DNA of 51,336 nucleotides. Origin: Parietichytrium sp. I65-24A (lineage: Eukaryota; Sar; Bigyra; Thraustochytrida; Thraustochytriidae). The stretch spans positions 1 to 51,336 of the forward strand of contig BLSF01000122.1 of the NCBI GenBank assembly GCA_012862575.1. The letters run 5' to 3'. Of the stretch, positions 5,056 to 25,775 are shown in pieces. The notes below the pieces were generated by a model that saw only the letters and a program-made list of their open reading frames with translations, made no database searches and was not told the origin of the DNA. A program made the translations under genes and the position numbers. Numbering within the stretch: position 1 is the stretch's first letter; each line of letters starts with the position of its first letter.

Positions 5056-5115
5056 GCGCGTGCGTAGGTGTGGGTGTGCGGGTGAGAGAGAGTGAGTGAG
5101 GGAGACGAAGGCGCG

Positions 5116-7848
5116 ATGCTGCGGTCGAGCTTGGAGCGGCTGCGCGCTCCGGTGGCTCTGGTGGATGGGAAGAGCGGCGAATACAAGGTGCTGAGCACGG
5201 GTTTTGAGCGGGTGTTGAACGCTTTCGGGTGGAGCTGCAAGGACGCACAGGAGAACAAATCGGTGTGGCGGCTGCTGGGGCTGGACGGTCGCCCGGCGGT
5301 TAACGGCAGAACCCTGTTAAATGTGCGCGGTGTGGACCATCTGGTGGAGTTATACGTGACGGATGAGACGGACGATGAGCTGCTCGTTGAGTTGGTGGAT
5401 CTGTCCAGCGAGAAGGCTAAGGATAGGGAAGAGTTCCTCCTGAAACGCAGCATTGAAGGGTTCTGGGAATGGGACCTGGTCAAAGAGTCTTATTTCATGT
5501 CACCGCAGTACTGGCGCATGTTTGGCCTCGAACCTGATAACAGCAAAGAAGATTCGTGGAAGCCCATCATAAATGAGGATGACTACAATGCTGCAATCAA
5601 ACTGATCAATGAAACCGTGCGAATCGATGCCAGCCACGAATTCAGCACTGAAATTCGTTTTTCTCATGTTGACGGCTCAACGGTGACCGTCCTCTCGCGG
5701 GGGTTTGCTGTTGAGTGGAGACCAGATGGACGCCCCGCAAAGCTGATTGGCTCTCACATCGATCTCACCAACGACAAAGTCTTGCAACAGTCTCGCATCG
5801 CCCTCCTCGCGCGAGTGGAGCGGCAGAATCAGGAGCTCAAGAATCTCATCAACATCGTTCCGTGCAAGGTGTTTGCAGTGGACAAAGTCGGGGACGTCAC
5901 CATTTGGAACAAAAAAATGTCAGAATTCAAGGAGATACCGCCGGAGGCCGCTGTGGGCAAACCAATGTCCGCTGTGTTCACAGATTCGGAGACCAAAGGC
6001 CTCAAGGAAATAGCCATGAAGGCCCTTGCCGGTAACTCTGCAAAGTTGAGCCAGGAGATGGTCCTCCTTGGCAAAAAGGGAGAGCGACAGATTATGGTGA
6101 ATTGCGTGCAGAGAAACGACGAACAGGACGAAATCAGCGGAGCAATCTTTGTCGGGCTCGACATTACCGACATGGTAAACTCTCGAGCAGAGCTAGCTAG
6201 GGCGGAGGAACGCGCAGCTTCCGAGGCACGACTCAACGAGTTTATCGCTCACGAGGTGCGCAACCCTCTGTCCATCGCTATTTCAGCCATGCGCTTTATC
6301 GAAGCAAACCTCACCTCTGTTCGCTGGACATCCATGAACGCTTGCACGCAGGTTTCAAACGACATCAATCTCATCCAAAACAGTCTCAGTTACATCAACG
6401 AACTGCTATCCAATATGCTCGACCTCAACAGCTTCCTCCGGACCAAGGTGGAACTCCACGTTGCCCTTATGAACGTCAAACGCGATCTTTTGCTCCCCGT
6501 ACGTGCCATGTTGTATCGCACTTCCAGACACATACCGATCAACGTCGTGTGCGACGAAGACGTTTGGGTCGAAGCCGACAACCTTCGCCTCAAACAGGTG
6601 ATTGTCAACCTCGTCAAGAATTCGCTTAAATTTGTAACTACTGGCTTCGTCCGGATCATCGCCAAGCGCGATACACTACAGCCTCGCAATCTCATCCTCG
6701 CTGTTGAGGACACAGGGCCGGGAATCCCCTCGGAAAATATGCATTCCCTTTTCTGCAAATACCAAGATAGCCTGGATCTTCAGCGGCAAGGCTCTGGAAT
6801 AGGTCTAAGCTTGTGCAAAGCAATCGTAGAAAGTATGGGTGGCACGATCAAACTTGACAAGGACTACCGCTCCGACATCCCGAACAACCCGGGTGCTCGT
6901 TTCGCAATCTCGGTGCCATTAGAAGCCAAGTCGGCCCCGTTGGGCAAGAGCACTGAGCTCAACCTCGCTAGCAATAAGGATGCCACCGCTCTGCAACAGG
7001 TGATTACGACTTTGCTCGGTCCGACCTCCAGGTGCCTCATCATCGACGATGACGCCGTGCTTCGCGAGATACTGAAGCGACTGGTACTCAAAGTCGCATC
7101 GGGAATGGATGTCGTTCAAGTCGCTAGCGGAGAAGAAGCCGTCCGTGTCGTGTCGGAAAGCGCAAAGCCATTTCACCTCATTTTTGTAGACCATTTCATG
7201 CCTGGGCCGGAGTCACCCTTATCCGGGTCAGAAACCATTCGCAAGCTACGAACTCTTCCGAATGCCGCAAACGCCATCATCATTGGGTGCTCGGCAAACA
7301 ATATGGAGCAAGAGCACGTGTCTAGCGGCGCAGACTTGTTTATTCGCAAACCGATTCCGGACTCCTCCCAAGTTGCACAGTTCATTTTGGACGGCTTCAC
7401 CTTGCCCTCAGAGCTTCGCTTCCTCGTTGTTGACGATGAGGCTGCAAACCGCTCCATGATTCGACGTATCATTGCCCGAGTTGCACCGAACTGTGTTGTG
7501 GAAGATGCATCCACAGCTTCCCAGAGTCTCGATAAGGCTCTGCAGCACAATGATTTCGACGTCATCATCTTGGATGAGCATCTTGGAAACTCTGCCCGTG
7601 GCTCAGAGGTCGCGCAAGAACTCCGTACGAGACACACCAACGCGGTTCTCGTCAGTGTTTCGGGATCCGTTGACGCAGGGGGGTTCCAAAAGAAACGCGC
7701 GAGACTCTTTGATGTGTATTGGCCCAAGCCTCTCCCGCCTCCATTTGCGATTAAAGGTGAGCTCATCGATGCGCTCGCAAGAAGCCGATCCGTGGATCCG
7801 TTGCAATTGTGCAGGGGGTTCACGGTGCAGAACACGTTCGATGCTTAG
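5116..7848 (+). CDS. PAS-containing hybrid sensor histidine kinase with two receiver domains
   Basis: 910 residues, one exon. The first ATG is at 5116; the frame is open upstream only from a GTG at 5092. Order: a PAS-like N-terminus (about 1-100), a PAS/PAC module (about 105-225, FWEWD), another PAS (about 240-355), a dimerisation/phosphoacceptor helix with the H-box FIAHEVRNPLS (His379), then an HATPase domain with an N-box (QVIVNLVKNSLKF), G1 box (VEDTGPGIP) and G2 box (GSGIGLSLCKAI). Two receivers follow: REC1 with the acidic cluster IIDDD, acceptor Asp692 (FVDHFMPG) and Lys in RKPIP; REC2 with VVDDE, acceptor Asp820 (ILDEHLG) and Lys in WPKP. No transmembrane segment is visible, so it is probably a cytosolic sensor. 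In such systems phosphate passes His to Asp and then to a separate HPt protein, which is not in this window. The ligand is unknown. It is convergent with the RME-8 gene. Confidence 0.92.
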   Translation: MLRSSLERLRAPVALVDGKSGEYKVLSTGFERVLNAFGWSCKDAQENKSVWRLLGLDGRPAVNGRTLLNVRGVDHLVELYVTDETDDELLVELVDLSSEKAKDREEFLLKRSIEGFWEWDLVKESYFMSPQYWRMFGLEPDNSKEDSWKPIINEDDYNAAIKLINETVRIDASHEFSTEIRFSHVDGSTVTVLSRGFAVEWRPDGRPAKLIGSHIDLTNDKVLQQSRIALLARVERQNQELKNLINIVPCKVFAVDKVGDVTIWNKKMSEFKEIPPEAAVGKPMSAVFTDSETKGLKEIAMKALAGNSAKLSQEMVLLGKKGERQIMVNCVQRNDEQDEISGAIFVGLDITDMVNSRAELARAEERAASEARLNEFIAHEVRNPLSIAISAMRFIEANLTSVRWTSMNACTQVSNDINLIQNSLSYINELLSNMLDLNSFLRTKVELHVALMNVKRDLLLPVRAMLYRTSRHIPINVVCDEDVWVEADNLRLKQVIVNLVKNSLKFVTTGFVRIIAKRDTLQPRNLILAVEDTGPGIPSENMHSLFCKYQDSLDLQRQGSGIGLSLCKAIVESMGGTIKLDKDYRSDIPNNPGARFAISVPLEAKSAPLGKSTELNLASNKDATALQQVITTLLGPTSRCLIIDDDAVLREILKRLVLKVASGMDVVQVASGEEAVRVVSESAKPFHLIFVDHFMPGPESPLSGSETIRKLRTLPNAANAIIIGCSANNMEQEHVSSGADLFIRKPIPDSSQVAQFILDGFTLPSELRFLVVDDEAANRSMIRRIIARVAPNCVVEDASTASQSLDKALQHNDFDVIILDEHLGNSARGSEVAQELRTRHTNAVLVSVSGSVDAGGFQKKRARLFDVYWPKPLPPPFAIKGELIDALARSRSVDPLQLCRGFTVQNTFDA

Positions 7849-8302
7849 TTCCTGAACACCGGTTGGTGCTCCCCACCAACCTTTTATACATTCGATCATC
7901 TCGATGGGAGATAACATGCGGCATTTTTGGCGTGGCTGCTTGTCGCCTCTCCTGTCACCGCTGCCGTTTCTTGTGCATATTTTTACCTGCCACCCATTTA
8001 TTATTTCTCAGTTTGCTCCATTCACAAATGGAGGCGCGTTTTGGAATACTGAATTCGCTCGAAAATCATTTATCTCCATTTTTTTCGAGTAAAATTTTTA
8101 TTTTTGGTTTTAAAAAAAAAAGTATATAGAATGGGAACATTGAAAGAAAGAAAGAAAGAAAGAAAAGCTCCAAGAACAAAGTTGTTTTATGGTTCATGCA
8201 CACAGGACTGATCAAACGTCATTAATCTTCCAGAACTGCTTTGCTCCACGCCCATCCACCCATAGTCAATCAAGACATCTTGACTGTGAGATTTCAGACA
8301 AG
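7849..8302. other. Convergent intergenic region with GAAA repeat
   Basis: 454 bp between two convergent gene ends, so it holds both 3' UTRs. It contains an A-rich run (8113-8122) and a GAAA tetranucleotide run (about 8145-8165). No open frame of interest. Confidence 0.7.
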
Positions 8303-11300
8303 TCACTGTGACTCGGTGTTCCCACATAGCGCTTGCCATTCTTCAGAGCGCTCCAAGAGCCTCTCAGCTGGTCTGCTGCGCTTAGCAAGCTCTCCAAGCA
8401 AATCTTGTGCGCCCTTTTGCAATTTCTCGGATGCACCAGGCGACTGGCCAAGAGCAAGCCCAAGGAGCTTTTCAAGAGTAACTTCCTCGCTTACAGAATC
8501 TGCGCTCTGTTCATAACTGCATACTAATCGCTCGAGAGTTTTGCAAGCTGCGAGAGCGATATCCTCCAAGGTTTCCGAAACAATCAGCCCAGTTAATGCT
8601 GAGAGAATCTCAGTTTCTTTGCTTAAAGGCTTCGCCCATTCCTCGCAGCCGCATATTGCAAGCAACACGGCGAAACAACAACGGAGTGTGCCCTCTCTCA
8701 ACTCCCCCCCTGCCGTCTTCGTTGCACGCGCAAGCACTGTGTAGTAAGCCGGGCTTGCAGTGCGGCTCAAGAGCCTTGGTCTTGCGTCATACAGCCTTAA
8801 AATGGCGTTGCACAGCAAGACCAGCTCGTCATCTCCGTCTAAATTTGTCAACAAACCAAATTCGTTCAACGCACCACCCGTTTGATTCACCGCAAGCGCA
8901 CCTTCTGCGACACCGTCAACGACAGCCTTTGGCTTCTCCGAGCTTGGTTTTGTGTCTCTTTTCGGAATCGGTGGGGGTTTGCTTTGACGACTGGGCACAG
9001 GAGGTGGCGCTACTTCGTGCCCCACTGGAAGCTCTGTTTGCATGGAACGAAGCGTCAGCTGCTCCCTAAGGTAGCTAGCTGTGGTAAGCTCCAAGTCTGG
9101 CTCATCCGCAGCGAATGCATGAGCCACGACGCCTCCGATTGTCGGAGTCGGACCATCGAGCTGGCTTGCAACGATTTCGCAAAACCGAGCACACAGAGCA
9201 TTTCCAAATCGTTCTGCATTAGAGAGTTTGGCATGAGGTTTCTCCACGAAAACTCTAACGTAGACACCTGCTATCGCGAGCTCCGAACGTAGCTCATCGT
9301 ACACCACAGATGTTTGCCCGTGTTCTTCACATACGTCCAACAAATGTGAGCGCATTTCCGGGGTCCAGATGAGCTCAGGCTCGCGGATCGCCAAGTCCGA
9401 ATCGAAAGTTTGTATAAAGGTGTTGTCGAGAAGCTTGCTGGCAAGACCACGTGGAAACAAGCCGCAAAGCTCCTCAAATGCTAGGGCGCCATGTAACTTT
9501 TCCTGGCAGCAGCGACCAAGCGCTGTACAAGCAAGATTTCGTATCTCCGGGTCCATCTTGCGGTCAAGACCAACTTTGACAAGCCGTAAAAACTTTCGCG
9601 TTTCGGGGTCGAAGAGCGAAGCCACGACTCTTGGAAATCCGGCCAAGTTATAAAAAATCCTCATACTCTCTTTAGAAACTCCACAGCTTTCCAAGAGTAC
9701 ATCTATAATTTCAGTATGGGATATGCTTTGCCCGAGTGCCGCGACTTTAGTCGCAAATAGCAATGTCTCAAGCGCCATCTCGCGAAATGCTGGCCCTTGC
9801 TTGAGAAGCTCAACAAGCACAGGGGCCACTGCAGGTTCGGCAAGCACCATCGCGTTGGCTATTGCATTCGCATCGCCACTGTTTTCCCTCGTCGCGAGCT
9901 GGAAGAGCAAGCACAGGGCCTTCAATCGCAAAGAGATGAAAACATGCCTTTCCTCCTCGCTCTTGGAGTCTCGCAAACCTTGCGAAAGTTGCTGTAGCAG
10001 CGCGACGGCAAACGCCGGACTGTTGTCCAAGTGCGATGGCTCGCGAACAAAGACATCCAAGAACACCCCTTGGACTTGCGGACGCTCTTCGAGCCCTTTG
10101 AGGCAAAACTTTGCGCCGTCTTGCGCAAGAACATCCCAAGGCGGCCGCTCTTCTACAAACTGCAAGACTTGAGCGGACATCTCCTCCGTCCATAGCATTG
10201 TTGGTGTCTCTGCCCCTTCGTTCAGCACACCAAGCAATTTCGTGGGGTTCGTTTCCGAGAAAAGCTTGAAGACAGGCTTGCTGAACAAAGTCTCCATCGT
10301 TTTGCGCGAAGTGTCGTTCGTCGGAGAGGCCAGATCTTTCGAGGCCAAGGACCCGCACAGTCGGGATATGGCTCTAGCAGCATGTTTTGCAGTCACATTT
10401 TTCCCCGGGGCTTGAGCCTTCGGTGTAGCTGGCACATCTGCTCCTGCTTGCGGAGGCGTGCTTGGCTTTTGAGCAGGCTTTGAATCGTAGAGAAAGAGGA
10501 GAGGAATGAAATCCCAAAGCAGCCCCCCTCTCAAAAGCGCGTTTTGGTGCGCTTCCTCGCCTGCCAGCCTTGCAACAATCTGAAGGACGTGCTGAATAGC
10601 GCGCTGGCTCCCCTCACAGTCCTTATAAGAAAGGACGGCGATGACCTCGTTAAGGATTGTTCCGTCCGTGTCTGCGCTAAGCAGCTCTACGACACTTTCC
10701 TGCGAATGTTTGAGTGACGCGAGTCCCACAAATGTGCGCAAACAGTTTTCAATAATCTCCGTGTCCCGCGACGGTGTCCACTCTCCTGACTCGAGACTAC
10801 GGATCGTTTGGACGCTCGCGCTAAACAACTTTGCGAGCAGTCGGTCACCGCCGGCGCTTACCAGGTGCTCTGCGTTTAGCGGAGAGCAAAGGCAGATTTT
10901 GTAAACCAGGTCCGTGGCAACGGCACACAAGTCTAGATTCTGAGACCGCTGCAAGTATGGTATCAGCAGTTCAAAGCCCTCATACGCAACGCTTCTCACT
11001 GCGTCAGGGAAAGAAGAGAAGATTTTTGCTTGCGTCCGAATCAGTAGCTCGATGGAGACAGAGTCAAGGTCCCCCTCGGCGATCGACCCTCGGCGGGAGC
11101 ACAGAGCCAAATACGCCTTCCGAATAAGATCGTAGCGCTGCAAATCCTCCTCCTTTCTACCGCTCGAGCTTGCGGCCTCCGCGCTCTTCCGATACGCTTC
11201 CTGAATCTCGAGAGAAGTAGGGTTATCGTCGAGCGCAAGGAGCTTTAGAGCCTCTTGCCTCGAGAGTGCTTTTGAGGAAGCGTCCAGCTCTTCTTTCCAA

Positions 11301-15664: not shown

Positions 15665-18090
15665 TCAGAGTAATGGTGAGAGATGTGACAACTTGCTGAC
15701 ATTGCGAGCATCCATCGGAGTTGGTTTGCCTTTGCTCGAAAGGAAAGAGAAAAGTTTACAGCTTAAGAGTTCGGAAATCTACTTGATTTACGAAAGCGGG
15801 GCGCATTCGTGATTCGTAGAGGTTTTGGAAAGAATTGGACTGAGTGAGACCTTAGGTGCGATGAAAGGTTGGTCAATAACCGCAATTATTGGAGAAAGAG
15901 TGTGTGAGAGAGAGAGAGTGAGAAGTGAGGAGGTTGTTCCAGTCGTGTTGTGCGAGTTGAGCTCATACCAGAGACGCGCTTGGGCAAAAGAAAAACAGAG
16001 AAAGGTGGTTTATTTTCAACTTTCCTGGAACTTGACGCGGACAATGGGGTATGTTCGGTGACATGAGTATCGCCAAGGTTTGAAATCATATTCCTGGAGA
16101 GATCTCGATCTTTGGAGGATAGAACGAGTACACTGCGCGCGGACGCGCTGCATTACGCTCCTCAATCCTCTCGGTTAGTTGGCTCAGGTCAGCAGTGAAC
16201 TCGCCCCACAGGTGCTTGGTGTTGCTCTCAAAGATGTGGCTGTAATCATCCATGAGCTTGGGCTGACTGAGCGATGTAGCGACGCTGAACACAGACATAG
16301 CGTAGTGAGTGAGAGGCGTGCCAATGGCTTCGCCTTCTCTGAAGCCCCAAGAAGCAAACCGAGGTAGAAAAGTAATGTCCTCTGCGTTTCCAGCATGATT
16401 GTGCTTTGCAGTGGCGGTGACGATCATTGTGGCAAGCATATGAACAAGGGTTCGCCTCTTGAGCTCCGGGAGAGTGTAAACTGTGGAAAGCTTGTCCCAC
16501 CATGCCTTGAGTTCGGCGTCATCGCGCACGTCGACACCCTTGTAGGTAATGGAAAGGTAGTTCCTCACGAACTTGAGCACGATATTGTAGAATTCTCGGC
16601 CATCCTCCACGTAAGGGATATCTTGTGCCGTAATGCCATCAAGCTGCTCCTTAACCGTTTTGTAATGCCTCATGGACTCCTCCGCGCGGTGGAAGGCCTC
16701 CACCGTACCGTTCACGCTAAGACCAGTCGCACGGGCGAAGAACCCGGTGCTCGAAATCAGGATATAATGCGCACCAATCGCGGCATTCCCTGCGCGATAT
16801 GTGAATGGCGTAGTCAAAAGGCGAATGGGGTGATCCGGAGAAAGGAGTTCCTGATTCGCAATCGTCAAGGAGTTGGCACACAAAAGATGGACATCAAAAA
16901 GGTGATCGGACACGGTCACGGCAAACAACAGCGTTGAGCGAAACACGAACTTGGCGTATTCCCAGTCCTCGTCACCGGGGAAATGGAGTTTGTTGCCCAT
17001 ATCGATTGCGACGATCTTGTAGTCCCTGTCGAAGAAGGCGTTTGCGCCTAGTTTACCGAAACCCTCCCTCGTGTCGAGGTCTTCATACTCCCGAAGGTAC
17101 ACCGCGTACTTTGGGGCGGTGACATTTTCCCGTGCAGCAGATACTGCGAGCACATCCGTCAGCGATGGCGACTTGATCATGTGAGCACCCATGCCATAAA
17201 ACGTGTAGTCTGTCATGGAGGCATCGGACTCTGGTTCTGGGCCATACCCTTGATTCATCTTGGCAGAGTTTCCGACGTTGAAGGTGCGGAGCCTGAGAAC
17301 CTCAGTGGGGTCCTCATCATCAGCCCACTCGCCGCAAGTATCTGCCGAACCCGGAAGCGGAAGGCTGCGCACCATGAAGACCCTGAGCCCATTGCTCGCA
17401 TCCGTATTGGGGGGCCAGAACTCGTCTAATAAGGTGCATTCAATAGTGGAGGCCCCGCAAAATGCTTTCGGGAGAGTCCTTTGCAGATATGGCTTGGGGA
17501 CAATCTCAGCGGAAAAAACTGGATGGGCACTGTGTGCTAGCAGAGTCAGAACGGCAACATACGACGGAAACTGGTCAAATCGATCGTCCGCGGGGAGCAT
17601 TCCCAATACCGTGCCGAACAGCGCAAACGGGTTCGCTCCCGCTTCTCCCATCATCTGCTCTGTCCCCATGTCGAGCGCTGTGGAAGCCGCCTCAAAAAGC
17701 GCCACTCCGTTCACTGCGGCGGCCATGAACGCCCCCGCCAACGCGCCGAGCCCCATACGTTCTGCCTTCATGCTGCCCTCTTTGCCTCCTCTGACTGTAT
17801 CCTCTCAATCCCCACTGCCAATTGCCCACTTGCACAGTTGCCAACTCGTCGCGTTGAGAGAGATTGGGACCTGTCACTCTCACTCTTTGATCAATCAATC
17901 AATCATCGATCGTCAATCAAAAATGACAATCTCTTCATCTCACTTCACCATACAGTGTGTACTGCTGTACACTATGCACTAGCACTTCTCCTCCAAGATA
18001 GGCTTAAGTCTACCGAGCGGTATAGAAGCAGGACATACAGGTGGCTGTTAAGAAGTTATGCGCCCGATAACTTGGAGTCGGGGGCCTTAT
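15665..18090. repeat. Tandem segmental duplication, unit A (lipoxygenase gene 1)
   Basis: Pairs with 18191-20585. Matching starts as TCAGAGTAATGGTGAGA at both left ends and continues through the 3' flank, the coding region, the 5' flank and a shared TCTACC(G/A)AGCGGTATAGAAG block (18009-18028 and 20488-20507). It fades near a shared GATAAC...GGGGGCC motif. The coding offset is exactly 2470 bp, whereas the left edge is offset by 2526 because the 3' flank of unit A has small extra simple-sequence segments. Confidence 0.9.
16086..17771 (-). CDS. Lipoxygenase-like non-heme iron dioxygenase, copy 1
   Basis: 561 residues, one exon, ATG at 17771. It matches the catalytic lipoxygenase domain and lacks the N-terminal PLAT/C2 domain. 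Supporting blocks: W270-x2-AK before SDHLFDVHLL, giving iron ligands His290 and His295 in the HX4H motif; SPDHPIRLLTTPFTYR; FFARATGLS; the third-ligand region AKHNHAGN (His457 or His459, Asn462); and the tail YPPKIEISPGI. The tail ends in Ile561, the C-terminal isoleucine whose carboxylate binds iron in lipoxygenases. Family enzymes insert O2 into polyunsaturated fatty acids to give hydroperoxides. The spacing of the third His to Asn is one residue longer than the usual HX3N if His457 is the ligand. Residues about 8-28 are hydrophobic (GLGALAGAFMAAAV) and could be a signal peptide or anchor. Substrate and regiochemistry cannot be read from sequence. Confidence 0.82.
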   Translation of the reverse strand: MKAERMGLGALAGAFMAAAVNGVALFEAASTALDMGTEQMMGEAGANPFALFGTVLGMLPADDRFDQFPSYVAVLTLLAHSAHPVFSAEIVPKPYLQRTLPKAFCGASTIECTLLDEFWPPNTDASNGLRVFMVRSLPLPGSADTCGEWADDEDPTEVLRLRTFNVGNSAKMNQGYGPEPESDASMTDYTFYGMGAHMIKSPSLTDVLAVSAARENVTAPKYAVYLREYEDLDTREGFGKLGANAFFDRDYKIVAIDMGNKLHFPGDEDWEYAKFVFRSTLLFAVTVSDHLFDVHLLCANSLTIANQELLSPDHPIRLLTTPFTYRAGNAAIGAHYILISSTGFFARATGLSVNGTVEAFHRAEESMRHYKTVKEQLDGITAQDIPYVEDGREFYNIVLKFVRNYLSITYKGVDVRDDAELKAWWDKLSTVYTLPELKRRTLVHMLATMIVTATAKHNHAGNAEDITFLPRFASWGFREGEAIGTPLTHYAMSVFSVATSLSQPKLMDDYSHIFESNTKHLWGEFTADLSQLTERIEERNAARPRAVYSFYPPKIEISPGI

Positions 18091-18190: not shown

Positions 18191-20585
18191 TCAGAGTAAT
18201 GGTGAGAAGTGTGATAACTTGCTGACATTGCGAACATCCATCGGAGTTGGTTTGCCTTTGCTCGAAAGGAAAGAGGAGAGTTTACAGCTTATGGTTCAGA
18301 AGTCTACTTGATTTACGAAAGCGGGACGCGATTCGTAATCCACAGAGATTTTGGAAAGTATTGGCTGAGTGAGACATTAAATGCGATGAAAGAGGTTGGT
18401 CAGCAACCTCATTTACTTGAGAGTCTTGTTTCGCAAGTTCAGTTCTTATCAGAGACGCGCTTGGGCAAAAGAAAAACAGAGAAAGATGGTTTATTTCCAA
18501 CCTTTCTGGAACCAGACACAGACAATGGGTTATTTTCGGCGACATGGGTTTAAACTTATATTCCTGGAGAGATCTCGATCTTTGGAGGATAGAACGAGTA
18601 CACTGCGCGCGGACGCGCTGCATTACGCTCCTCAATCCTCTCGGTTAGTTGGCTCAGATCAGCAGTGAACTCGCCCCACAGGTGCTTGGTGTTGCTCTCA
18701 AAGATGTGGCTGTAATCATCCATGAGCTTGGGCTGACTGAGCGATGTAGCGATGCTGAACACAGACATAGCGTAGTGAGTTAGAGGCGTGCCAATGGCTT
18801 CGCCTTCTTTGAAGCCCCAAGAAGCAAACCGAGGTTGGAAGGAAATGTCCTCTGCGTTTCCAGCGTGATTGTGCTTTGCACTGGCAGTGACGATCATTGT
18901 GGCAAGCATATGAACCAGGTTTCGCCTGTTGAGCTCCGGGAGAGTGTAAGCTGTGGAAAGCTTGTCCCACCATGCCTTGAGTTCGGCGTCGTCGCGCACG
19001 TCGACACCCTTGTAGGTAATGGAAAGGTAGTTCCTCACGAACTTGAGCACAATATTGTAGAATTCCCGGCCATCCTCCACGTAGGGAATGTCTTGTGCCG
19101 TAATGTCATTGAGCTGCTCCTTACCCGTTCTGTAGTTCCTCGTGGACACTTCCGCACGGCGAAGGAGCTCAGCTGTACCGTTCGCGCTAAGACCAGACGC
19201 ACGGGCGAAGAGCCCAGTGCTCGAAACCAAGAGATAATGAGCACTAATCGCGGAATATCCTGCGCGATATGTGAATGGCGTAGTCAAAAGGCGAATGGGG
19301 TGATCTGGGGAAAGGAGTTCCTGATTCGCAATTGTTAAGGTGTTGCCACACAAAAGATGGACATCATAAAGGTGATCGAACACGGTCACGGCAAACAACA
19401 GCGTTGAGCGAAACACGAACTTGGCGTATTCCCAGTCCTCGTCACCGGGGAAATGGAGTTTGTTGCCCATATCGATTGCGACGATCTTGTAGTCCCTGTC
19501 GAAGAAGGCGTTTGCGCCTAGTTTACCGAAACCCTCCCTCGTGTCGAGGTCTTCATACTCCCGAAGGTACACCGCGTACTTTGGGGCGGTGACATTTTCC
19601 CGTGCAGCAGATACTGCGAGCACATCCGTCAGCGATGGCGATGTGATCATGTGAGCACCCATGCCATAAAATGTGAAGTCTGTCATGGAGGCGTCGGACT
19701 CTGGTTCTGGGCCATACCCTTGATTCATCTTGGCAGAGTTTCCGACGTTGAAGGTGCGGAGCCTGAGAACCTCAGTGGGATCCTCATCATCAGCCCACTC
19801 CCCGCAAGTATCTGCCGAGCCCGGAACCGGAAGGCTGCGCACCATGAAGGCCCTGAGCCCATTGCTAGCGTCCGTATTGGGGGGCCAGAACTCGTCCAAA
19901 TAGGTGCACTCAATAGTGGAGATCCCGCAAGATCCTTTCGGGAGGGTCCTTTGCAGATACGGCTTGGGGACAATTGCAGCGGAAAAAATTGGTTGGGCAC
20001 TGTATGCGAGCAAATTCAGAACGGCGACATACGACGGAAACTGGTCAAATCGATCGTCCGCGGGGAGCATTCCCAATACCGTGCCGAACAGCGCAAACGG
20101 GTTCGCTCCCGCTTCTCCCACCATCTGCTCTGTCCCCATGTCGAGCGCCATCGAAGCCGCCTCAAAAAGCGCCACTCCGTTCACTGCGGCGGCCATGTAC
20201 GCCCCCGCCAACGCGCCGAGCCCCATACGTTCTGCCTTCATACTGCCCTCTTTGCCTCCTCTGACTGTATTCTCTCAATCCCCACTGCCAATTGCACAGT
20301 TGCACAGTTGCACAGTTGCCAACTCGTCGCGTTGAGAGATTGGGATCTGTCACTCATTGTCACTCTCACTCTCTGATCATTCTCAATCTCTTGTCGAAAA
20401 TAACAATCAGTCACTTCACCATAAATATCATGCATACATTGCCTCCTGCTACAGAGTAGAGTTATGTACCGGGGCGGTAACTCACATCTACCAAGCGGTA
20501 TAGAAGGGAGACATTTTTGAGGACTCTAGTCTAAAAGCGCTTGATGTGGAATATGATAAGCAGCCGATAACCTGGGGGCCCCATT
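18191..20585. repeat. Tandem segmental duplication, unit B (lipoxygenase gene 2)
   Basis: Second copy of the unit at 15665-18090, same orientation. Coding sequences are close throughout, but similarity is patchy: a 262-bp block (19380-19641, matching 16910-17171) is identical, while about 19100-19220 differs from its partner at roughly one base in six. Confidence 0.9.
18556..20241 (-). CDS. Lipoxygenase-like non-heme iron dioxygenase, copy 2
   Basis: 561 residues, intact, same length as copy 1 with no indels. The iron-ligand positions are kept: FDHLYDVHLL (His290, His295), SAKHNHAGN (His457/His459, Asn462) and terminal Ile561. The hydrophobic N-terminus is also kept. Differences cluster around residues 290-380 (for example HLYDVHLLCGNTL in place of HLFDVHLLCANSL, and AELLRRAEVSTRNYRTGK in place of VEAFHRAEESMRHYKTVK) and near residues 70-115. 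That is where a lipoxygenase substrate channel could change, so the copies may differ in substrate range; this is inference. Both copies run in the same direction with their own flanks, so each probably has its own promoter. Confidence 0.82.
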   Translation of the reverse strand: MKAERMGLGALAGAYMAAAVNGVALFEAASMALDMGTEQMVGEAGANPFALFGTVLGMLPADDRFDQFPSYVAVLNLLAYSAQPIFSAAIVPKPYLQRTLPKGSCGISTIECTYLDEFWPPNTDASNGLRAFMVRSLPVPGSADTCGEWADDEDPTEVLRLRTFNVGNSAKMNQGYGPEPESDASMTDFTFYGMGAHMITSPSLTDVLAVSAARENVTAPKYAVYLREYEDLDTREGFGKLGANAFFDRDYKIVAIDMGNKLHFPGDEDWEYAKFVFRSTLLFAVTVFDHLYDVHLLCGNTLTIANQELLSPDHPIRLLTTPFTYRAGYSAISAHYLLVSSTGLFARASGLSANGTAELLRRAEVSTRNYRTGKEQLNDITAQDIPYVEDGREFYNIVLKFVRNYLSITYKGVDVRDDAELKAWWDKLSTAYTLPELNRRNLVHMLATMIVTASAKHNHAGNAEDISFQPRFASWGFKEGEAIGTPLTHYAMSVFSIATSLSQPKLMDDYSHIFESNTKHLWGEFTADLSQLTERIEERNAARPRAVYSFYPPKIEISPGI

Positions 20586-21780: not shown

Positions 21781-24700
21781 ATGGAGGAGTCCAAGTGCCT
21801 CCACCAGCTGTTCAGGGAACAGGCGAAGCGTACGCCGGATAATGTAGCGCTTCTGAGCAAGAGCGGTAAGATTTCGTACAAGGATCTGGATGTGGCCACG
21901 GATAAGTTGGCGGCGATGCTGCTGCGCAAGGGCGTGAAGAAGAACCACTCGGTGGGGATCCTCATGGAGCGCTGCAATGAGTACGCGCTGGCGTACATTG
22001 GAATCCACAAGGCTGGTGCCGGGTACGCTGTGCTGGATGTGGCGTATCCCGAGGGACTCCTGCATGATGCCGTGGCCACGAGCAAGCCAACCGTAGTGAT
22101 TTGCAAGCGAGCGCATGTCGCGAGGCTCCCAAAGGACCAGTCAGTCATTCTGCTGGACTCGTGGGATTCCCTCAGCGAGCTCACTGCGGAGGACAGCGAG
22201 GCTCTTGCGAAAGTGGACTACTCTGACCTGGACTCGCTGTGCTACATCGTCTTCTCGTCGGGATCCACGGGCAAACCGAAGGCGATCGCCTGTCCTCACC
22301 GAGGCGCGGTGTTCTCGTACCAGTGGCGCTTCGAAAACGTTCCCTATGACTCGTCAGTGACTGAAGTGGAGGCCTGTAACGTTTTCTTTGTGTGGGAGAT
22401 GCTCCGGCCGCTGCTCCGCGGACAAACCATGTGCGTGATTCCCGACGATGTGATCTACGATCCAGCTGTCTTGACTGAGTTCATTCGGGACATGAAGGTG
22501 ACGCGCATGCTTTTCACCCCGAGCTTGCTGGAAGCGGTCTTGGACTGCCGCGTTTTGGAGGAGAAGGAGCTTATCGCCCGCCTGGAGTCCCTCAAGGCTA
22601 TTGTGCTTTGTGGTGAAGTCGTCACTGTGGCACTCCAGGAGCGCACCAAGAAATATCTTCCAAAGACGAAGATCTGGAATCTCTATTCCGTTAGCGAGTG
22701 CCACGATGTGGCCGCCCTGGACTTGACCAATGGCAATTATGGATCGCGCAAGTACTGCCCCGTAGGGAAATTATTTGTTGGTGTCGAAGCCCATGTACTT
22801 GATGAGTCTCTCAGCGTCAAAGCTGTCGGCGAGGAAGGCGAGTTGTACGTTGCGGGTCCGACTCTAGCGCTTGAGTATGTTGGCCAGCCAGAACTCACCA
22901 GCGAACGGTTTCCGACAATAAACGGTAAACGTATGTACAAGACTGGGGATAGGGCACGGGTGCTCCCGAATCGCGAGCTCGAGATTCTGGGTCGATGTGA
23001 CTCGATGGTGAAGATCAGGGGTTATTCCGTTGAGCTTCGTGCCATCGAGGCTGCCATCATGACATTGACCGACTTGGTATCCTCTTGCTGCGTCCTTGTG
23101 CAAGGAGAAGAGGGCGAGGACAAATTTGTCGTTGCGTACATTGTTCTCAAAGGCCAATCTGCGACTTGCAGAAAAGTGCGCATGGAGCTCAAGTCCAAGC
23201 TTCCGCATTACATGGTTCCTGCATACCTCGTGGAGTTGCCAGAGCTCCCAACTCACGAAGTGTCAGGCAAACTCAATAAGAAAGGTCTCCCCAAGGTCAA
23301 CGTCAAAACTGACAAGCCCGACAACAACCGCCAGCGAAGCTTTTCCACCGAGCTTGACATCACTCTTCCCCGCAACGATCTTGAGTGGGATCTTCACAGA
23401 ATCTGGTGCGAGGTGATGGGCCTCCAGCAGATTGACGTCGTTGCGGACTCGTTTTTCGACTGCGGGGGCCACTCTTTACTCGCCGCCAAGCTTGTACAGT
23501 CCATTAAATTGGAGACTGGGAAGGAGCTCAGCGTTGTGGACATTTTTAGCAACCCGACCATCGAGGCGTTGGCGGTCAGACTCGGCGGAGGAGTCTCTGC
23601 AGACGTGGCCCACAAAGGGGTTGACCTCAACACCGAAGTGGACGTCTTTGACGCGTCCAATGCTGTCAATGACATCGCAATGCGCGCATTCTGGCGCTCC
23701 ATGCACTATAATCAGCGCGCTCGTTCAGTGCTAGTGACTGGCGCCACGGGCTTTTTGGGTGGCTTTCTTCTCGGAGAGGTTCTGTCTCAGCCGGACTTTG
23801 ACGTGGTGTATTGCATCGTTAGGCCATCCGCTGATTCCGAAGACACTGGCCTCGACAGGGTGAAGAGGTCGCTGAAATCGAAAGGCCTTTGGAAAGATGA
23901 GTATGCCAGCCGACTGCATGTCTTCAAAGGTGACGCAGGCTTGCATCATTTGGGCCTCGAGGACGACGATTATGCAGCTCTCTCGACAGGTGTTGACCTT
24001 GTGATCCATTGTGCGGCAATGGTCAACCTGGTCTACCCTTACGAAGGCCTTCGCGCTGCAAATGTTCTTGCGACCCGCAACATGATTGAGTTTGCTTTGA
24101 TGGGCAAGGTCAAGCGCTTTGGATACGTCTCCACAAACGGCATCTTTCCTGATGGCTCCAAAGACTGCAAGGAGGACGCTGACATTAGCGGGTTTGCGGA
24201 TAAATTGCACTCCGGATACGCCCAATCCAAGTGGGTTGCTGAAGAGCTTGTTCGCCGGGCATCGGAGAAGGGCCTGCCAGTTACAATCTTCCGTCCAGGT
24301 AATATGGGTGGCGATGTAGGCACTGGTGGAGGAAATGGGTCTTGGAACTCGTCTGACTTCAACTATTTGCTTCTCACCGGATCCATTGAGCTTGGGGCGG
24401 CACCCGATGTCAAAAACTGGTTGATCGAGATGACGCCAGTCGACATCGCCGCGTCTGCAATGATCAAGGTTTTACAGGACAATGATTCCATCGGCGAGAC
24501 GTACCACGTCACCAATTGCAAAAATTGTTTGACATCGGACANGACTTCAACTATTTGCTTCTCACCGGATCCATTGAGCTTGGGGCGGCACCCGATGTCA
24601 AAAACTGGTTGATCGAGATGACGCCAGTCGACATCGCCGCGTCTGCAATGATCAAGGTTTTACAGGACAATGATTCCATCGGCGAGACGTACCACGTCAC

Positions 24701-25775
24701 CAATTGCAAAAATTGTTTGACATCGGACAAATACTTTGACTCGATTCGGAATGCGGGGTACTCTCTGGAAAAGTGCTCTTTTGACCAATGGAGGTCCAGA
24801 GTAGAGTCCTCCTCAAACCCAAGTTTGGCCAAGCTCCGCAATGCAATCATTGGGCTCACCGAGGACAGCCTGAAAAACATTTACACGTTCGACAATACTA
24901 AATTCGTGGCCAAATGCAAGTCCTATGGAATCGATCTCCCCCACGTCAGCACTACGATGATGCACGAGTTTGTCGAAGAGTGGCAGCGAAGTGGGGCAAT
25001 CAATCCTCCAGTTGTCTCCACCGCTCGATTGCTTGTAGGCCGAGTTGCGATCGTCTCGGGTGCGTCCTCCGGTATTGGCGAAGCAATCGCCCGAGCTCTG
25101 AGCGCCGCGGGAGCTTCGGTCGGAATTGGTGGGCGACGCTTGGAGCGTCTGGAGGAGATTGCCAAGGAGATATCGAGCAAAACCGGCGGCAAGGTTGTTG
25201 CATTTAAAATGGATGTGACAAAGCGCGAGGAGGTGAAGGCCTTCGTGCAGGATTGTGAGAACGCTCTTGGCCCTTGCGATATCTACATCAGCAACGCTGG
25301 GGTCATGCAGTACACATACATGAAGAACCTCAAAGAGGACCAATGGGCAATGGAAGTTGATGTGAACTGCAAGGGCTTACTTCACGGGATTGGCAGTGTG
25401 CTGGATGGCATGCTTTCCCGCGGCCGTGGCCACATTGTCGCTACGTCTTCGGACGCTGGTAGAAAAGTTTTCCCAGGTCTCTCCGTCTACAGTGGGACCA
25501 AGTTTTTCGTAGAGGCTGTATGCCAAGGACTGCGCTTGGAAACTGCCGACTCTGGTCTGCGTGTGACCACCATTCAACCAGGTGATTGCAAAACCGAGCT
25601 CTCCACGTCCACCATTGATCCAGAGGCTCGAGCTGCCTGTGCCCAGCCAAGCAACGCACGCGAATACTGGCTTGATCCTGAAGACGTGGCGCGAGCTGTC
25701 TTGTTTGCGGTGACGGCTCCTGGACATGTTGGCATCAACGAAGTTCTTGTCGAGCCAAGATCTGCTCCGGCATAA
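21781..25775 (+). CDS. NRPS-like carboxylate reductase, architecture A-T-R-SDR (candidate glycine betaine reductase); split by an assembly error
   Basis: As given, two frames appear (21781-24612 and from about 24516 to 25775). Removing one copy of the 188-bp unit (187-bp repeat plus N) joins them in frame into 1268 residues. Adenylation domain (about 5-500): P-loop SSGSTGKPK (159-167), TGDRARVLP, and catalytic Lys497 in VSGKLNKKG. Carrier domain: FFDCGGHSLL with phosphopantetheine Ser565. Thioester reductase (about 645-990): GATGFLGG NADPH motif (G654 on) and the Y813/K817 pair in GYAQSK. C-terminal short-chain reductase (about 1022-1268): SGASSGIGE (G1031, G1035, G1037), ISNAG, and Y1174/K1178 in YSGTK. 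The enzyme should activate an acid as the adenylate, load it as a thioester, reduce it to an aldehyde and then to an alcohol. Fungal ATRR, which turns glycine betaine into choline, has this domain order. The substrate here is inferred only. No condensation domain. Confidence 0.9.
24355..24729. repeat. Unmerged contig overlap: 187-bp direct repeat around a single N
   Basis: 24355-24541 and 24543-24729 are identical, separated only by the N at 24542. The duplicated piece encodes the end of the thioester reductase domain. The 188-bp offset shifts the frame by two. Collapsing it restores one continuous frame across the whole gene, so this is almost certainly an assembly artefact rather than a biological duplication. 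Confidence 0.95.

Follow-up and report, generated by a model that had tools for sequence, protein, structure and literature searches.

Glycine betaine is usually regarded as the end point of a pathway that starts from choline; does a thraustochytrid carry an enzyme that runs the other way? The question is raised by one gene (21781-25775, plus strand) in a 51,336-nucleotide stretch of DNA (hereafter, the window) from Parietichytrium sp. I65-24A (NCBI GenBank assembly GCA_012862575.1; contig BLSF01000122.1, positions 1 to 51,336, forward strand). A Pfam scan placed an adenylation (A), a carrier (T), a thioester reductase (R1), and a C-terminal short-chain dehydrogenase/reductase (SDR; R2) domain in this gene, with no condensation domain among its matches, which bears out the domain order proposed in a first-pass annotation of the same DNA. 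Here, we report that this A-T-R1-R2 gene, judging from its sequence, probably encodes an ATRR-type glycine betaine reductase. An enzyme running from betaine to choline would let a cell keep choline for its membranes in reserve in the form of a salt protectant.

Substrate pocket and actinobacterial relatives

In A domains that activate amino acids, Asp235 (GrsA numbering) grips the amino group of the substrate, and, following the cation-pi idea, aromatic side chains suit a quaternary ammonium group. The window protein has Val at position 235, within the motif VFFVW (residues 201 to 205, GrsA 235 to 239; 22381-22395, plus strand), and, in an HMMER alignment with linear gramicidin synthetase LgrA, Val201 takes the place of the FD-motif Asp. 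With F236, F237 (F203), W239, and Asp309 at position 330, the last within the A5 motif NLYSVSECHDV (residues 300 to 310; 22678-22710, plus strand), the pocket contains two Phe, one Trp, and one acidic residue (ten-residue code, V-F-W-L-V-C-L-D-V-K). Because Asp235 is replaced by Val and accompanied by these residues, the predicted pocket is unlike that of amino acid-activating enzymes, the type of pocket that the first-pass annotation had named as evidence against its reading; as read from the alignment, it would fit a cationic group lacking N-H, such as trimethylammonium. The FD motif was kept in eight of the nine other A domains compared, namely, three from C7 of the same genome and five of six from bacterial plasmids, while the exception, Nostoc L003, has its own variant motif instead (MAFFT gapped these outgroups at 235 to 237, and their FD motifs were read from the printed motifs rather than from the table letters).

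Exact 8-residue patterns from the whole protein returned no relative from viral contigs or from genome contigs. A degenerate query around the two pocket motifs returned no relative from viral contigs and, with patterns drawn from the first of these motifs and from one further stretch, seven loci from 84,980 species genomes, all of them actinobacterial and 44 to 51% identical to the window protein over residues 150 to 420. These seven founders were picked by pocket motif, and their sharing of the motif is partly built in. Nineteen further loci (L013 to L031) were collected with a whole-length profile and no motif filter; motif conservation in these is only partly independent, because the profile was built on six founders and the window protein. 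They represent 19 of the 22 remaining positive genomes (G210, G381, and G396, with fragments only, were left out). Within the founders' genomes, the profile scored the family at 1097 bits or more and other A domains at <400 bits; one match of 353.6 bits was the second fragment of the A-T-R gene in Rubrobacter marinus (L011, 7569-10380), which is split between frames near 8190-8320 and was for that reason omitted from the pocket table and the tree.

Among 25 bacterial clade proteins, F236, F237, W239, H329, E330, and K517 were found in 25/25, and position 235 was V in 24/25 and I in 1/25; position 330 is D in the window protein versus E in all 25 relatives. Identity between the clade and the window protein was 41 to 48% over the whole A domain, and a tree with no fungal sequence included split the two together from the nine other A domains (ultrafast bootstrap [UFBoot], 96). 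As far as this comparison reaches, grouping with an unrelated A-T-R-SDR clade, the other evidence that the first-pass annotation would have counted against its reading, was not seen. The closest relatives found are this actinobacterial clade, not Lys2 or carboxylic acid reductases. Of the 39 genomes in the R. marinus class (Rubrobacteria, as named in this analysis), 27 had the A-T-R family, three of them as fragments only. Across 396 genomes sampled from the phylum, 31 had profile matches: the same 27, the genome of L012, and three (G197, G239, and G387; 514 to 668 bits) whose matches are probably other A-T-R enzymes.

The second reductase has bacterial counterparts as well. L010 and L012 are fused A-T-R-R genes, and R2 is a separate gene nearby in ten further loci (partial in L020); in Rubrobacter, A-T-R and R2 are neighboring genes. 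The window R2 was 52 to 56% identical to the R2 of 11 actinobacterial loci versus 24 to 29% to seven other SDRs, and class-wide R2 matches fell into two groups, 243 to 276 bits (21 places) versus 188.5 bits or less. With R2 counted as present at 243 bits or more, plus a truncated copy in G339 beside its A-T-R gene, it was found in 20 of 27 A-T-R-positive genomes versus 1 of 12 A-T-R-negative genomes (Fisher P = 0.00025, with kinship among the genomes ignored). R2 sits away from A-T-R in several genomes, and the R2 tree had too little support to separate independent fusions from a shared one.

A betaine/choline-type transporter gene directly adjoins A-T-R in 11 of the 26 loci, a count that covers related species, which share arrangements by descent. 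It belongs to the betaine/carnitine/choline transporter (BCCT) family in L010, L014, L015, L016, L017, L019, L021, and L024 (a partial match at a contig start) and is of the OpuAC type in L006 (partial match), L008, and L011. Together with the pocket and with relatives that share its motifs at 41 to 51% identity over the A domain or its core, these 11 loci support the reading as a betaine reductase, which the first-pass annotation had already put forward. The three OpuAC loci (L008, 284-11380; L011, 1763-15251; and L006) lie in a larger, conserved Rubrobacter cluster of DeoR, an unknown gene, zinc alcohol dehydrogenase, OpuAC, A-T-R, and R2. L008 and L006 have an additional SDR, and in L006 and L011 the cluster is followed downstream by LUD/4Fe-4S and HpcH aldolase genes. 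Because of this company (DeoR, dehydrogenase, LUD, and HpcH), the OpuAC clusters could have a catabolic rather than a choline-supplying role, perhaps as an operon for an onium compound.

Gene layout and assembly joint

The coding parts of the gene lie on the plus strand. The first piece (21781-24541; open reading frame and Pfam) spans A, T, and the greater part of R1 and stops at an assembly joint. Its adenylation core (AMP-binding, PF00501; residues 11 to 366; 21811-22878; 218.8 bits; E value, 1.4e-64) is followed by an AMP-binding_C match (residues 422 to 491) and the catalytic Lys497 (23269-23271; residue check and alignment). The carrier domain (PP-binding, PF00550; residues 538 to 598; 23392-23574; 49.5 bits) has its phosphopantetheine Ser565 at 23473-23475, and R1 (NAD_binding_4, PF07993; residues 652 to 894; 23734-24462; 195.6 bits) has the catalytic pair Y813/K817 at 24217-24231. 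Beyond the joint, the end of R1 and the linker to R2 (24730-25040) lie in the frame of the open reading frame 24516-25775, as placed by the match to L010 and L012 and by the L012 alignment. They lead into R2, a classical SDR (adh_short, PF00106; 25041-25775; 168.4 bits; stop codon, 25773-25775) with the catalytic Y1174 at 25488-25490 and K1178 at 25500-25502. In the residue check, K497, S565, Y813/K817, and Y1174/K1178 all stood exactly where the first-pass annotation had placed them.

The joint (24355-24729) breaks the frame and consists of two identical 187-bp copies (24355-24541 and 24543-24729) around an N at 24542, the sole non-ACGT base of the whole window. As assembled, the gene is therefore read as two overlapping open frames (21781-24612 and 24516-25775); the frame runs through unbroken, for 1268 amino acids, only when one 187-bp copy is dropped together with the N. 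The 1268 residues first proposed were thus correct in number, while the skipping of one copy on which the number depends had gone unmentioned. The joined protein matched L010 and L012, both full-length bacterial homologues, over residues 1 to 1267 (37% identity), and gaps in the L012 alignment never exceeded 4 residues across residues 840 to 940. For these reasons, unmerged contig ends are a much likelier explanation of the break at 24542 than a real frameshift.

Elsewhere in the window, two very similar genes of 561 amino acids stand in tandem on the minus strand (16086-17771 and 18556-20241), with only partial, weak lipoxygenase matches (34.3 and 36.7 bits), and 5092-7848 encodes a hybrid sensor histidine kinase of 918 amino acids with PAS, HATPase, and receiver domains.

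Host genome, proposed route, and rival readings

The host assembly (42.5 Mb, 172 contigs) was searched with the A-T-R1 part of the protein. The window gene was the sole A-T-R-R gene found; other strong matches were confined to one nonribosomal peptide synthetase (NRPS) frame of 4460 amino acids on C7, and the rest were weak and partial. BCCT matches were found at three loci (C4 and C23; best, 423.8 bits), in frames of 813 to 862 amino acids versus a model of 485 positions. The genome also contains a choline-dehydrogenase-like gene, a 968-amino-acid frame whose three PEMT-domain matches suggest a CHO2-like enzyme, and a 326-amino-acid frame with a match to ACPS-type phosphopantetheinyl transferases. 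It is plausible from these matches that the host imports betaine, makes betaine from choline, methylates phosphatidylethanolamine, and activates carrier domains; the reductase would then be a return route rather than the only source of choline. A search of the genome for a PUFA synthase gave no match above the cutoff. The best PF07993 match in the host, on C47, was considered as a candidate Lys2 and rejected, as its frame reads as a fatty acyl reductase plus an acyltransferase-like region. This frame (L001, 1743-4499) is a single open frame of 1386 amino acids, perhaps a bifunctional lipid enzyme.

In the proposed route, the A domain would activate betaine with ATP, its Asp-less pocket presumably offering aromatic side chains and one acidic residue to the trimethylammonium group. 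The T domain would then take up the acyl group on the phosphopantetheine arm of its Ser565. From there, an NAD(P)H-dependent step at R1 would free betaine aldehyde, which R2 (Y1174/K1178) would reduce to choline. Imported or stored betaine may in this manner return to the choline pool for phosphatidylcholine.

Several observations weigh against this reading. Positions 299 and 301 are V and C in the window protein, with W (24/25) and N (21/25) as the bacterial majority, and A-domain identity alone would not set the clade apart, because Nostoc L003, with its different pocket, is 39 to 40% identical to the window protein versus 41 to 42% for L010 and L012. Seven of the 27 A-T-R-positive genomes are without an R2 of this type. 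The choline-dehydrogenase match of the host (620 bits) falls under the curated cutoff of 732.1, and there is no choline gene among the window neighbors scanned. No betaine/choline-type transporter was found in 15 of the 26 bacterial loci, as searched with one BCCT and one OpuAC query in the fetched stretches, some of which stop at contig ends near the gene (e.g., L007, L020, and L025). Family scans covered the neighbors in 11 of these 15 loci (L020, L023, L026, and L027 were left out) and gave Nramp (L009, L022, and L025), gamma-glutamyltranspeptidase (L009 and L013), TauE (L029, L030, and L031), GT87 (L018), an amidohydrolase (L028), and a sulfotransferase (L012), plus, at a greater distance, an FAD-binding protein (L007), none of which points to betaine. 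Where a transporter does adjoin, the BCCTs of L010 and L015 had the glycine betaine uptake equivalog as their best NCBIfam model with 594.3 and 649.5 bits, both under its cutoff of 650, and the L011 OpuAC matched a single NCBIfam model, one for choline binding (139.4 bits versus a cutoff of 379.05). This last match also favors an enzyme that reduces some other small onium acid (beta-alanine betaine, a carnitine-type betaine, or dimethylsulfoniopropionate) to its alcohol, as do the aromatic pocket, which is generic evidence for onium groups, and the range of such solutes carried by BCCT and OpuAC transporters. We nonetheless regard another onium substrate as unlikely, given that both BCCT neighbors scanned score best with the glycine betaine model and that the A-T-R-R order matches that of the fungal betaine reductase, as described in the available text of PMC11050029.

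An NRPS-like enzyme that reduces an amino acid or another ordinary acid, resembling Lys2 or carboxylic acid reductase and supplying an alcohol for secondary metabolism, appears very improbable. A-T-R enzymes of that sort are common, and the window protein drew 380.3 bits from the Lys2 model TIGR03443 and 392 bits from the MxcG model (both NCBIfam), but the curated cutoff for Lys2 is 1030.1 bits. The carboxylic acid reductase model NF041592 gave 159.7 bits, confined to the R domain, versus a cutoff of 1300; the Asp that would bind an amino group is gone from the pocket, and there is no biosynthetic cluster among the ten window proteins scanned. Plasmid matches reached a top identity of 34.8% over A-T-R1 among the 15 listed. 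It is scarcely credible, finally, that the 187-bp repeat is a real tandem duplication and the gene is broken, with only A-T-R1 made as a dead or aldehyde-releasing enzyme: the frame is indeed interrupted at 24542 in the assembly as given, but a single N between perfectly identical copies is what overlapping unmerged contig ends would leave, and R2, downstream of the joint, is intact and shows good conservation. The reading that we prefer is therefore an ATRR-type glycine betaine reductase.

Comparison with known systems

The NRPS-like glycine betaine reductase ATRR of Aspergillus nidulans was reportedly described by Hai, Huang, and Tang in 2019. The window protein has its domain order in common with this fungal enzyme, to which it is likened by description and not by sequence. 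In the accessible parts of PMC11050029 and PMC8403587, the fungal ATRR is given as an A-T-R1-R2 glycine betaine reductase with two consecutive reductases, and in the latter source it counts as a conserved gene of primary metabolism across the fungal genomes studied. The former gives UniProt accession A0A1U8QWA2 for the A. nidulans protein and, in its available text, describes a nematode enzyme (MiATRR of Meloidogyne incognita; 32.62% similarity to the A. nidulans protein) that is proposed to convert betaine to choline; it has the A-T-R1-R2 order in common with the window protein, again by description, and differs in its host, a nematode versus a protist.

A 2019 survey is cited in the same portion of PMC11050029 as finding atrr genes to be exclusive to eukaryotes, several protists included. 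Because protists are thus cited among the carriers, a protist ATRR has already been reported and ours is not new in kind, while the statement of exclusivity is contradicted by the actinobacterial A-T-R and R2 homologues, if these do the same job. Our literature search, for which subscription papers were mostly out of reach, found no described bacterial form of ATRR, which is weak evidence. In the passages available, similarity to the fungal choline cluster is listed for ice-metagenome genes, from an organism unnamed there (PMC12350317), and for a Pseudomonas region (PMC13266271), with no orthologue claimed in either case. The newest part of the present analysis lies outside the window, in an actinobacterial clade that shares the pocket motifs, has an R2 partner in most genomes, and has a transporter alongside in 11/26 loci. 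We see an even chance that Actinobacteria, chiefly the Rubrobacter class, share this enzyme, in most cases encoded by two genes, often next to a gene for betaine import, and in some lineages fused; that the protist enzyme is a fused version of this system, which would be the older of the two and may have been acquired from bacteria; and that betaine is a choline reserve in both. If the job is the same, the actinobacterial genes offer bacteria in which to test what the enzyme does, its split versus fused forms, and its tie to betaine uptake.

Among the better-known reductases, the alpha-aminoadipate reductase Lys2 has the A-T-R order and the thioester-reductase fold in common with the window protein, and carboxylic acid reductase has the same logic of adenylating, carrying, and reducing its substrate; neither is known to have an R2. 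The actinobacterial A-T-R and R2 genes have in common with it the pocket [VI]FFxW, H329, and an acidic residue at position 330, and they differ from the window gene in that R2 is separate in Rubrobacter and the A domain is only 41 to 48% identical.

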